The position numbers and the translations under genes were made by a program. From the NCBI RefSeq assembly GCF_018704065.1, contig NZ_JAGUQP010000006.1:1-40860 (forward strand): 40,860 nucleotides of DNA. Direction: 5' to 3'. Numbering within the stretch: position 1 is the first letter of the stretch; every line of letters begins with the position of its first letter. Under the pieces are notes generated by a model. The model was not told where the DNA came from and ran no database searches. It saw only the letters and a list, made by a program, of their open reading frames with translations. This document shows positions 25,231-40,860 of the stretch, in pieces. This DNA comes from Desulfovulcanus ferrireducens. Its GTDB lineage: Bacteria > Desulfobacterota > Desulfovibrionia > Desulfovibrionales > Desulfonatronovibrionaceae.

Positions 25231-25549
25231 AGGATAGTTAAGGCTAGGGAGACATTTTTTTATTTTACCAACTATTTCAGTTGGTTATAGGTTTATTCTT
25301 TTATTTAAACGCGAATTTTTTGCTTTTTTTCTGTTTAAAAATCTTTTATACTCTCCTAAAAACTTTAGGAGGGCTTATGATTAATGACATTATCCATATT
25401 TTGGAGAAAGTGCCGGATCCAAGGGTAGATAGAACCAAGTTACATCTATTAAGTGATATTCTTTTCATTGCAATTTGCGCTATCATTGCCAATGCTGATT
25501 CTTACTATGATATGCAACTTTTTGGTGAAACGCATATTCAATGGTTTAA

Positions 25550-27615
25550 CCCAAGTTTCCAGTGTTGTTGAGTAAATAATCTAATATTTCAATGTGTTAA
25601 CCAAAAAAGGACTAATTTTACGGGCACTACTTTTGCGATGTAATTATTTTCCGTTTCCTCACAGACTCGCTGGTGATATGCATGGCTGAATAGATTTCCT
25701 GCTGTTTGAACGTAGGTGTTGTGCAATGCCGGATATGTATCACCTTACCAGCTTCTGTCGGCAAGCTTGTAGTCATGATCCGATGGGTGGATAACCATGA
25801 CCTGATAGTCTTCCAGCGATGAAAAAGACCTGTTTCGTTTAGACGGTAGCGGATATAATGCAGGAGATGATAGGCCAAAACAGTGATGAAAAGATGGCCT
25901 TCAATACGTTCTGGCTTCTGATGAAAATTGGGGCGTAGGCCAAGCTCGTCCTTCAGACAGCGAAAGGCGTCTTCTACCACTGTGAGCATGATATAGATTG
26001 ACCAGATTTGTTCATCAGCTAAGTCTGTCCGGTCAGTGCGCAGAAAATAGCTGCCATTATAGGGTTTGCCCAGTCGCTCTTTATCAAATTCCCAGATGAT
26101 GTCCACGGCATTTTGTCCATCGGCTGTGACCTGAATGTCAAAGCCTGGAGAAACCCGGCTGTATTGCTGTCGCAGACGGCCAATCTTTTCCAAGACCTTG
26201 TCATATCTCTTGAGCCGTCTTTTGATGCCAAGGCCTTCACGGAGATATGATAATTCTTTTTCCATCTTCTCCCTGGCTTTGTTGACCATGGCATTTTCTT
26301 TCTTGGATTTGGCCTCGCTCAGACAGTGAAGAAAAAGTTCATCACCTTGATGGAAACTGTGGACTTTTATGCCCTCTTTGATTTCAACGAACTCTGGTGT
26401 TGGGAGCTCATGGGGCTTTGACCGTGAGACTACAATGTAGGAGAATCCTTCCGACTTGAGGTTGGCTAGGTTATCCTCTGTAGCAATGCCGGCATCAATG
26501 ACTACGGTGGGCTTTTCAAGTGGCAAAGGCGGATGTTGTCCCTGGGCCTGTTTATGGACTTCATTGACCATATCCAGTAATGTCTTTGACTCGCTGACAT
26601 TGCCTTCGAAGATACGGCTTGTCTTGAGAAAGCCCTGTTCATCCAAGACAATGCCCAGGGTAACCAAAGGACGGTCATTGCGTTTTTCTTTGGACTTGCC
26701 CCGCTTGGCCTTTTGGTAGAAGGGCACATTACCTTCAAAGTAAGTATTGGTCAGATCATAAAGAATAATGGATTCACCTAGTCCCAGAAGTTGTTTGCTG
26801 TATTCTCTTATAAATTGTTCAATCTGCTCTTTGTGCTCAAACAGGATGTCTGAGGTGTTATAGAGAGCATGTTTTGATATCCTGGAGAAGTCAGTACCCA
26901 GGATATCGTCCAAGCCACTTTCTTCTTCGGCAAATCGTTTGAGTTCCCATTCGCTGCTGGGGTGGATGAGACGGCCGACAATGAGTAATGTAGCCAACTC
27001 CATAGTTGTTTTGTTAAATCCAAGTTCTTTGAAAAGCTTAAAAAAACCAAGTTGAACCATGGCCTGCACCCCGACATGCTCAGGCCCCACAGACTTTCCT
27101 TCTGTAGAACTAATGGCATTGACGTCAACCATATGGAAATCAGCTTCATTTTCTGTGAATTCGTTCTTTTCTGCCATTTTTTTGGAGATGAGCAACTTTG
27201 CATAGTGTTGAGCCAGGGCTTCAATATGATCGTCCAAATGTAGAATGCGCTTTTGTCCGTTGAGTAGCTCTTCAATTCGTTTTGCTAGTTGTTTCCAATA
27301 CTTTTTATCCAGGTCGAATGGATCAAGGGAAAGCAGAATATGTTGCCGTGGTCCCTTTTCAGTGCGGACCGACTCAACCAACTCATGGGTATAGTATATT
27401 TTACTGGATGTTTTGTTCTTTTTTGCTTTAGCACGGATAAACATGTAGTCATGCTAGCACATTTCACCTCGATTGCAAGCACTAATTTTATTTTATGGGC
27501 ACTACATTGTCCCTTTGAAAAATTCTAAGTCAATAAAATCAACAGGTTATTGAATCAAAAAACCCAAAATTTGGCCAAAATTTGCTAAATTTTGGCGCTT
27601 CCGTGGAAACTTGGG
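25550..27615 (-). mobile_element. IS1634-like insertion sequence inside ISAs1
   Basis: Ends are defined by perfect 12-bp terminal inverted repeats, CCCAAGTTTCCA (25550-25561) and TGGAAACTTGGG (27604-27615). TTAA lies on both sides (25546-25549 and 27616-27619), consistent with a 4-bp target duplication. Because TTAA is itself palindromic, it could alternatively belong to 16-bp repeats. Excision with one TTAA restores the host gene frame. Inside, a 20-bp motif (actaattttacgggcactac, 25611-25630) recurs in direct orientation with a 5-bp insertion at 27481-27505. A strong hairpin (GCCAAAATTT / AAATTTTGGC, 27574-27596) lies near the right end, upstream of the transposase. Confidence 0.9.
25627..27444 (-). 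CDS. IS1634-family DDE transposase
   Basis: This 605-residue protein is a full-length transposase of the IS4-like superfamily, closest in form to IS1634. Recognisable parts are the N-terminal YYTHELVESVRTEKGPRQ, the first acidic residue in ILYDLTNTYFEGN, the second in PTVVIDAGIATEDNLANL, and the late Glu within FRCLKDELGLRP...ERIEGHLFITVLAYHL. No frameshift or stop is present, so it may still be active. The reading direction is opposite to the interrupted ISAs1 gene. A 5'-TTGCAA-(17)-TGCTAGCAT-like promoter is possible upstream on the minus strand (around 27450-27480). Confidence 0.9.
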   Translation of the reverse strand: MFIRAKAKKNKTSSKIYYTHELVESVRTEKGPRQHILLSLDPFDLDKKYWKQLAKRIEELLNGQKRILHLDDHIEALAQHYAKLLISKKMAEKNEFTENEADFHMVDVNAISSTEGKSVGPEHVGVQAMVQLGFFKLFKELGFNKTTMELATLLIVGRLIHPSSEWELKRFAEEESGLDDILGTDFSRISKHALYNTSDILFEHKEQIEQFIREYSKQLLGLGESIILYDLTNTYFEGNVPFYQKAKRGKSKEKRNDRPLVTLGIVLDEQGFLKTSRIFEGNVSESKTLLDMVNEVHKQAQGQHPPLPLEKPTVVIDAGIATEDNLANLKSEGFSYIVVSRSKPHELPTPEFVEIKEGIKVHSFHQGDELFLHCLSEAKSKKENAMVNKAREKMEKELSYLREGLGIKRRLKRYDKVLEKIGRLRQQYSRVSPGFDIQVTADGQNAVDIIWEFDKERLGKPYNGSYFLRTDRTDLADEQIWSIYIMLTVVEDAFRCLKDELGLRPNFHQKPERIEGHLFITVLAYHLLHYIRYRLNETGLFHRWKTIRSWLSTHRIMTTSLPTEAGKVIHIRHCTTPTFKQQEIYSAMHITSESVRKRKIITSQK

Positions 27616-28553
27616 TTAAGAAATATTTGAAGTTACCTAATGGTATTCCATCAAAGCATACTTTTCACCGGGTACTGACAATGATTAAGCCTGAGACTAT
27701 GGTTGAATGTTTAAGAGAAATTGTAGGAGTGATTTCTCCTGAGGGTAAAGTTAATCATATAGCGTTAGATGGCAAGACTATCAGAAGGTCATATGATAAA
27801 GGAGCAAACAAGAAGTCTATTCATGTGATTAGTGCCTGGGCATCAGAGAACGGATTGGTTTTAGGTCAACTCAAGGTAGATGATAAATCTAATGAGATTA
27901 CAGCGATTCCTGAATTACTGGATACTCTTGATATTAAGAAAACCACAGTTAGTATCGACGCTATGGGATGTCAAAAAGAAATAGCCAAGAAGATAAAAGA
28001 AAATGGTGGAGATTACTTTTTGGCAGTAAAAGCAAATCAGAATACGCTTTATGAAGATATTCGAGCCTTCTTTGAAGGCTTATCAGAAGAAGAGTGTGAA
28101 AGTTATCAGGAGATAACAAGCGGTCATGGTCGGGTAGAAACGCGTAAAGGTATAGTCTGGCAAGATGTGGACTGGCTTCCACAAAGGGAAGAGTGGCCAG
28201 AGCTTAAGTCAATTATCATGATAGAAAACATCAGAGAAACAGGCAATAAACGAACCATAGAAAAAAGGTATTATATCTGTAGTCGAGCATGTTGTGCATC
28301 CGAGGCCGTGCAAATTAGCCGTAATCATTGGGGTATAGAAAATTCCTTGCACTGGGTGTTAGATGTAACCTTTGGAGAAGATAGTAGTCGCATTCGGAAA
28401 GGTCATGGTCCAGAAAATATGTCAGTTCTAAGACGGATAGCTATTAACCTCTGTAAACAGGATAAAAAATCAAAACATAGTATCAAAGCCAGAAGGAAAA
28501 AGGCTGCCTGGGATATAAATTATCTTGCAAAGGTTATTTTTAATAAATTTTAG

Positions 28554-28647
28554 GTGTACTAGTCAAAACAAAATCTGACAGTGGTTATCCTTTCTGGCAG
28601 TTGTAAGATTTAGTTAAGGTTGTCAGATTTTGTTTTGACTAGTACAC
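28554..28647. mobile_element. MITE-like 94-bp hairpin with 26-bp perfect inverted repeats
   Basis: The left arm 28554-28579 (begins GTGTACTAGTC, ends AAATCTGAC) and right arm 28622-28647 are exact reverse complements over 26 bp, enclosing 42 bp with no coding potential. It starts one base after the ISAs1 stop codon and replaces the expected ISAs1 right end. The terminal GTGTAC suggests it was mobilised in trans by an unidentified transposase. Alternatively it could serve as a bidirectional terminator. Confidence 0.85.
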
Positions 28648-28702
28648 TTGAAAAAACCGCCGCCGTGCTTGGGGTCAGCTGAATACGATTGTTATGTGTG
28701 CC

Positions 28703-39801: not shown

Positions 39802-40063
39802 TATTTTCCTTTATCTTAAAAATTCCTCAAATAGACTAAACTATTGTGGTTATACGTCATGGCGAGGGGAATAACTTGGCAACTTTAAACATACTTTTGC
39901 AAACATCTCAATTCATAATTTGTGATACGGAATTTTAAAAATCACAAAAAGCTTAATCAAACCCATATTCAGGTCAACTCAACCTCAAGACGAGCAACCT
40001 CCCCTAAAAGGTAATTAAATGGCTCATATAAAAATGTCAAAACAACAAGGTTGAGAAAACCCC
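39802..40063. other. Intergenic region upstream of phoH
   Basis: About 260 bp without gene or strong repeat; it should contain the phoH promoter on the minus strand. The tandem array begins at 40064. Confidence 0.6.
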
Positions 40064-40860
40064 ATTTGCCAGCGGCACCTACCACGTCAAATGTGAAAGA
40101 ATTACGCAATAATTGATAAAATTTTAGCATGAAAAGCTAAGCCGGGCTCAGCTCAGCTAACAGAACATAATAAGGCTCTTGTGGGAGAAAATCTGCTAGC
40201 CCAGCAGACTGAGAATCCACCCCTCGTCATTCTGAGGGAGAGAAACGACCGAAGAATCTACCAACGTAGAAAACCAGATTCTTCGCTTCGCTCAGAATGA
40301 CGTAATTAGAAAACCCCATTTGCCAGCGGCACCTACCACGTCAAATGTGAAAGAATTGCGCAATAATTATGATAAAATTTTAGCATAAAAAGCTAGACTC
40401 ATCTAACAGAAGATAACAAGGCTCTTGTGGGAGAAAATCTGCTAGCCCAGCAGACTGAGAATCAACACCTCGTCATTCTGAGGGAGAGAAACGACCGAAG
40501 AATCTCCAACGTAGAAAACCAGATTCTTCGCTTCGCTCAGAATGACGTAATTAGAAGAACGCATTTGCCAGCGGCACCTACCACGTCAAATGTGAAAGAA
40601 TTACGCAATAATTGATAAAATTTTAACATAAAACCCTAAGCCGGGCTCAGCTCAACTAACAAAAAATAACAAAGCTCTTGTGGGAGAAAATCTGGTGGCT
40701 CAGCAGACTGAGAATCCACACCTCGTCTCGTCATTCTGAGGGAGCGAAACGACCGAAGAATCTCCAACGTAGAAAACCAGATTCTTCGCTTCGCTCAGAA
40801 TGACGTAATTAGAAAACCCCATTTGCCAGCGGCACCTACCACGTCAAATGTGAAAGAATT
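40064..40860. repeat. Tandem array of about 250-bp composite units
   Basis: Units start with ATTTGCCAGCGGCACCTACC at 40064, 40318, 40563 and 40821 (periods 254, 245 and 258); the fourth runs off the window. Each unit has a CATTTG / CAAATG dyad, a GCTCAG-rich middle, a TCTGCT-(5)-AGCAGA hairpin (altered in the third), and a long palindrome with CGTCATTCTGAG at its left and CTCAGAATGACG at its right, enclosing GAAGAATCT / AGATTCTTC. The palindrome half resembles a repeat class widespread in bacterial intergenic DNA. There is no coding content and no CRISPR-like spacing. Confidence 0.9.

Follow-up and report, generated by a model that had tools for sequence, protein, structure and literature searches.

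The window, the 40,860-nucleotide stretch of Desulfovulcanus ferrireducens DNA that was analysed, ends in a run of direct repeats in which a palindrome is joined to a conserved companion sequence. What these units are, and how they came to stand head to tail, is the question raised by this locus. The evidence makes it very probable that two miniature transposons, one nested within the other, were expanded in tandem here, and that the array consists of locally amplified ISKra4-type MITE fossils. Contigs of this assembly (G000) are given below as C numbers; the window opens C6.

Extent and composition of the array

A tandem array with units of about 250 bp, as claimed in a preliminary description of the sequence, was recovered by TRF at 40054-40860 (score 1230, period 258, 3.2 copies, 90% matches, 5% indels). 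The units run from 40058 up to the window end, and repeat finding within the window gave spacings of 243-258 bp, in agreement with the period variation of 245-258 bp described earlier. Every complete unit contains the CGTCATTCTGAG...CTCAGAATGACG palindrome, with arms at 40225/40288, 40471/40533 and 40729/40791, and no open reading frame of 90 aa or more lies within 40058-40860. The window end coincides with a 100-N scaffold gap (C6:40861-40960). Extending the sequence bore out the expectation that the array continues beyond the window: the end of a palindrome and then one more head lie to the right of the gap, and the array ends at C6:41156-41157. Counted around the gap, the assembly holds at least five heads and at least four palindromes, a lower bound on copy number because the gap lies inside the array, hides the length and order of units there and may contain further copies.

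Each unit is two fused mobile-DNA parts, a head (H, about 162 bp) and a palindrome (P, about 78 bp). When an array unit was used as query, its matches split genome-wide. Bases 164-245 (P) had about a dozen matches that lack the head, and bases 12-157 (H) recurred on C1, C8, C11 and C17, directly after a P on C1, C8 and C17. The features of the array in window coordinates are as follows.

40049..40057, plus strand: left half of a candidate target-site duplication around the whole array, GGTTGAGAA, read directly; its partner, GGTTGTGAG, lies outside the window at C6:41157-41165
40058..40222, plus strand: head 1, H-MITE copy with decayed terminal repeats (alignment with dispersed H copies)
40225..40302, plus strand: palindrome 1, P-MITE core that has lost its terminal inverted repeats (inverted repeat; fold z -6.2; alignment with dispersed P copies)
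40303..40311, plus strand: P-H junction TAATTAGAA, fossil target site of H in the P-MITE (same junction at C1, C8 and C17)
40312..40468, plus strand: head 2, H-MITE copy (alignment)
40471..40547, plus strand: palindrome 2 (inverted repeat, alignment)
40548..40556, plus strand: P-H junction TAATTAGAA (sequence read)
40557..40721, plus strand: head 3, H-MITE copy with the least decayed left end, ..CGCATTTGCC (alignment)
40729..40805, plus strand: palindrome 3, with a small CTCGT duplication before it (inverted repeat, alignment)
40806..40814, plus strand: P-H junction TAATTAGAA (sequence read)
40815..40860, plus strand: head 4, cut by the scaffold gap at the window end (similarity search, flanking sequence)

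H and P were absent from 60 relatives searched with the unit and a P half-arm, among them the sole congener, whose genome is only 82% complete. The array sequence matched no phage record, the H pattern had no match in a collection of genome contigs, and a literature search on the palindrome sequence as text returned no relevant paper.

The head, the palindrome and the ISKra4 element

With dispersed H as the query, four sites besides the array were located: full 162-bp copies at C1, C8 and C11, and a copy at C17 that is interrupted by about 320 bp. The dispersed copies have terminal inverted repeats of about 22 bp and target duplications of 8-9 bp, and in the complete ones 17-18 of the 18 terminal positions tested pair. 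At C11, where H stands without P, the copy reads CTTCTTGAG / GGGCGCATTCG ... GAATGCACCC / CTTCTTGAG, with a 9-bp duplication that matches at 9/9 positions. At C1, where H lies within a P-MITE, it reads TAATTAGA / G GGGCGCATTCG ... GTGCACCC / TAATTAGA (duplication 8/8). The left end of H, GGGCGCATTCGCTAGCTGCACC, equals the ISKra4 end at C7:1127-1148 (GGGCGCATTCGATAGCTGCACC) at 21 of 22 bases. Judged from its sequence, H is a non-coding MITE with ISKra4-family ends. In its ends, its target duplication and its non-coding dispersal, dispersed H has the properties that an ISKra4-type MITE would have, and an ISKra4 transposase is the putative helper. Intact terminal inverted repeats were not found in the array copies, in which 8-10 of 18 tested positions pair; these copies are probably fossils and not mobile copies.

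The preliminary description had been unable to place the companion sequence in a named family; with ISKra4-family ends, target duplications and dispersed single copies, the head now has such a place. The dispersed single units that it proposed to look for do exist, H at C11, C1 and C8 and interrupted at C17, and P at its dozen or so places.

P, for its part, forms the core of another MITE. A P-MITE of about 150 bp at C14:30703-30852 has GGGTGCATCCGCTAG ... CTAGCGGATGCACCC on either side of P and is flanked by a gacaagac duplication; P-MITE ends are related to those of H. The pattern GGGTGCATCCGCTAGTTG, allowing up to 3 mismatches, matched the genome 39 times, compared to 0 matches for the reversed control. 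At C1, H lies inside a P-MITE with TAATTAGA on both flanks, and the P-TAATTAGA-H junction is present at C1, C8 and C17 and throughout the array. The array P copies are 95-98% identical among themselves, and the dispersed P copies closest to them (88-91%) are those that adjoin H at C1, C8 and C17, plus a copy on C9. The H-to-P junction has no dispersed counterpart in the genome; the motif TCCAC is common to this junction and to the left arms of P-MITEs. Further MITE subfamilies in the same genome (loci L066-L092) share GGGTGCATCCG ends and differ in their interiors, for example elements of about 250-335 bp with TTGGGTTGAGTAGTTGAGTAGG motifs at C8:5098-5349, C1:53926-54185 and C19:34499-34833.

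A transposase of the ISKra4 family (p-MULT 4) of insertion sequences is split over the contig ends C25:1-569 and C7:1-1148 (NF033572). The outer ends of the split element are GGGTGCATCCGATAGCTGCACC and GGGCGCATTCGATAGCTGCACC. Because the 9-bp duplication GTTAAATGT is found on both outer sides, the two contig ends very likely hold halves of one ISKra4 element, and the contigs are probably adjacent. Reading by eye shows a different insertion sequence lodged in this element, recognisable by its GTCCGGTT...AACCGGAC ends and a CACTAGTG duplication; no intact ISKra4 helper was seen in the assembly, the sole copy found being this interrupted one. In another genome of the same order (G022), an ISKra4 element of 1533 bp has GGGTGCATTCGGTAGCTGCGACC at its ends and is flanked by an 8-bp duplication, CTTGCGGG. 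Members of the transposase superfamily to which ISKra4 belongs have 18-39-bp inverted repeats and generate 8- or 9-bp duplications (PMC3942029).

Other candidate parents were set aside. A degenerate ISL3-family transposase at C43 was first favoured for its similar left end (GAGTGCATCCGCTAATTG) and later dropped, because truncation has removed its right end and because the ISKra4 copy is the better match and has a target duplication. This ISL3-family element (C43:10879-12277, L078), with a left end like the MITE ends, carries an in-frame stop as well as the truncation. The ISAs1-like and IS1634-like transposases of the window, families judged by eye from open reading frames, were also considered; the window holds no clear copy of the MITE ends, with one 3-mismatch match against 1.1 expected by chance. 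At 25281-28553 the ISAs1-like gene is split by the IS1634-like one (605 aa open reading frame, minus strand), and a near-perfect inverted repeat, GTGTACTAGTCAAAACAAAATCTGACA...TGTCAGATTTTGTTTTGACTAGTACAC, follows the ISAs1-like gene at 28553-28650.

Growth of the array and competing explanations

Within the array, H copies share 90-94% identity, against 74-83% with dispersed H, and decayed ends are common to all array copies tested. Because the array copies resemble one another more than they resemble dispersed H and have their ruined termini in common, growth of the array in place by recombination, and not by transposition, is strongly supported, with an exact mechanism that we infer. The shared decay further makes it most likely that amplification came after the loss of mobility, the alternative being later homogenisation between units. 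The outer flanks of the array, GGTTGAGAA and GGTTGTGAG, match at 7/9 bases (chance about 0.0013 for one fixed 9-mer pair). This imperfect duplication suggests that a block starting and ending with H may sit in one old insertion site. The phoH gene and a UPF0016 gene lie about 1470 bp apart here, gap included; some relatives have the same two genes side by side, and match positions there put the spacers at roughly 220 bp.

These observations can be arranged as four steps, the first two of which follow from the anatomy of the copies. H, a non-coding MITE with ISKra4-family ends that leaves 8-9-bp target duplications, entered the right arm of a P-MITE, giving P-TAATTAGA-H, a junction that survives at C1, C8, C17 and in every unit of the array. 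An H-P-H block would then have come to lie inside one target duplication at the phoH/UPF0016 spacer, either because it transposed as a composite, using its outer H ends, or because a P-H piece recombined with a resident H; the TCCAC match at the H-to-P junction hints at one illegitimate join. Direct repeats that flank a segment are a classical substrate for unequal recombination or slippage. In the last step, after decay of the H ends, P-H units would have been added through replication slippage or unequal homologous recombination driven by the direct H repeats. It is conceivable, if unlikely, that H-P-H, with an H copy at each end, is a new composite MITE able to move as one, and that MITE fusion and tandem growth give rise to modular BOX-like elements; were this true, the array would be one such BOX-like element caught mid-formation.

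The units might instead have been added one by one, through successive H and P-MITE insertions at one hot spot. Nesting does exist in these MITEs, as H within the P-MITE at C1 with its target duplication demonstrates. However, the H-to-P and P-to-H junctions fall at the same positions in every unit, small indels aside, and no per-unit target duplications surround the H-P blocks. Array H copies are also nearer to one another than to any other copy, and all those tested have the same decayed, probably immobile ends. We consider serial insertion improbable and retain tandem expansion of the nested pair.

Still less probable is a functional structured RNA or a regulatory satellite under selection, acting for example on the divergent phoH and UPF0016 genes. 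The array does lie between two divergent genes, the palindrome could form a strong stem that folds beyond chance (z -6.2), and insertion upstream of sigma-A promoters has been reported for several ISKra4-group elements (PMC3942029). A stem is, however, expected of a palindromic MITE core, and the head folds no better than shuffled sequence (z -0.01 for the array head and -0.79 for a dispersed one). Only units 1 and 2 have the TCTGCT/AGCAGA hairpin of the head in perfect form; in unit 3, the last unit and every dispersed copy its pairing is disrupted and nothing compensates, and a covariation check between array and dispersed copies found no compensatory changes. Rfam gave nothing at the gathering threshold on the window and one chance-level U4atac match only (E 0.87) on the extended locus, promoter and terminator scans were near chance, and neither H nor P was found in the 60 relatives searched. 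The array is parasitic non-coding DNA, with a host function that is putative at most. From the earlier picture of several hairpins plus a palindrome per unit, the palindrome survives and the head hairpins, which are not conserved, do not; the covariance analysis suggested earlier lent the hairpin no support. Where a satellite, a structured-RNA array and a recombination-amplified repeat had been offered as possibilities, the data favour recombination-amplified units and lend the head no support as structured RNA.

An assembly artefact, to which the scaffold gap within the array might point, is scarcely credible, since units in one contig differ by substitutions and indels (90-94% identity in H) and so are not one read set laid down twice, and another distinct head stands on the right side of the gap; the array is confirmed as real.

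Relation to known repeats

Like ISKra4-derived MITEs, H has GGGTGCATYCG... ends and 8-9-bp duplications, is short, non-coding and dispersed, and has a matching insertion sequence in the genome; unlike them, the H copies of the array are arranged in tandem, joined to the core of a second MITE, and their ends have decayed. REPINs consist of two REP sequences in inverted orientation and are mobilised by a RAYT transposase. Tandem REPIN clusters are known in Pseudomonas fluorescens SBW25 (PMC3116915), and they resemble the array in placing a palindrome with a fixed flank head to tail over hundreds of bp in all. REPINs are tied to RAYT transposases, whereas the ends and target duplications here indicate a DDE transposase of the ISKra4 type, and the companion sequence of the array is itself a MITE. 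The BOX elements of Streptococcus pneumoniae are likewise MITE-like with a tandem module, a variable array of the internal boxB, whose length changes have been ascribed to slippage, unequal crossover or circle reinsertion (PMC3049150). Their sequence is unrelated, and boxB is internal to one element, in contrast to the two fused elements of the array unit.

Since tandem REPIN clusters and BOX elements are known, arrays of this sort are already a known kind, and the present one is a tidy example of a known process and no new kind of system. It shows a route from dispersed miniature transposons to a satellite-like array, by way of insertion, nesting, loss of mobility and local amplification, and dispersed intermediates of that route are still found in the same genome. 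It also connects an ISKra4-family element with a set of MITEs that is spread across the genome in this lineage.
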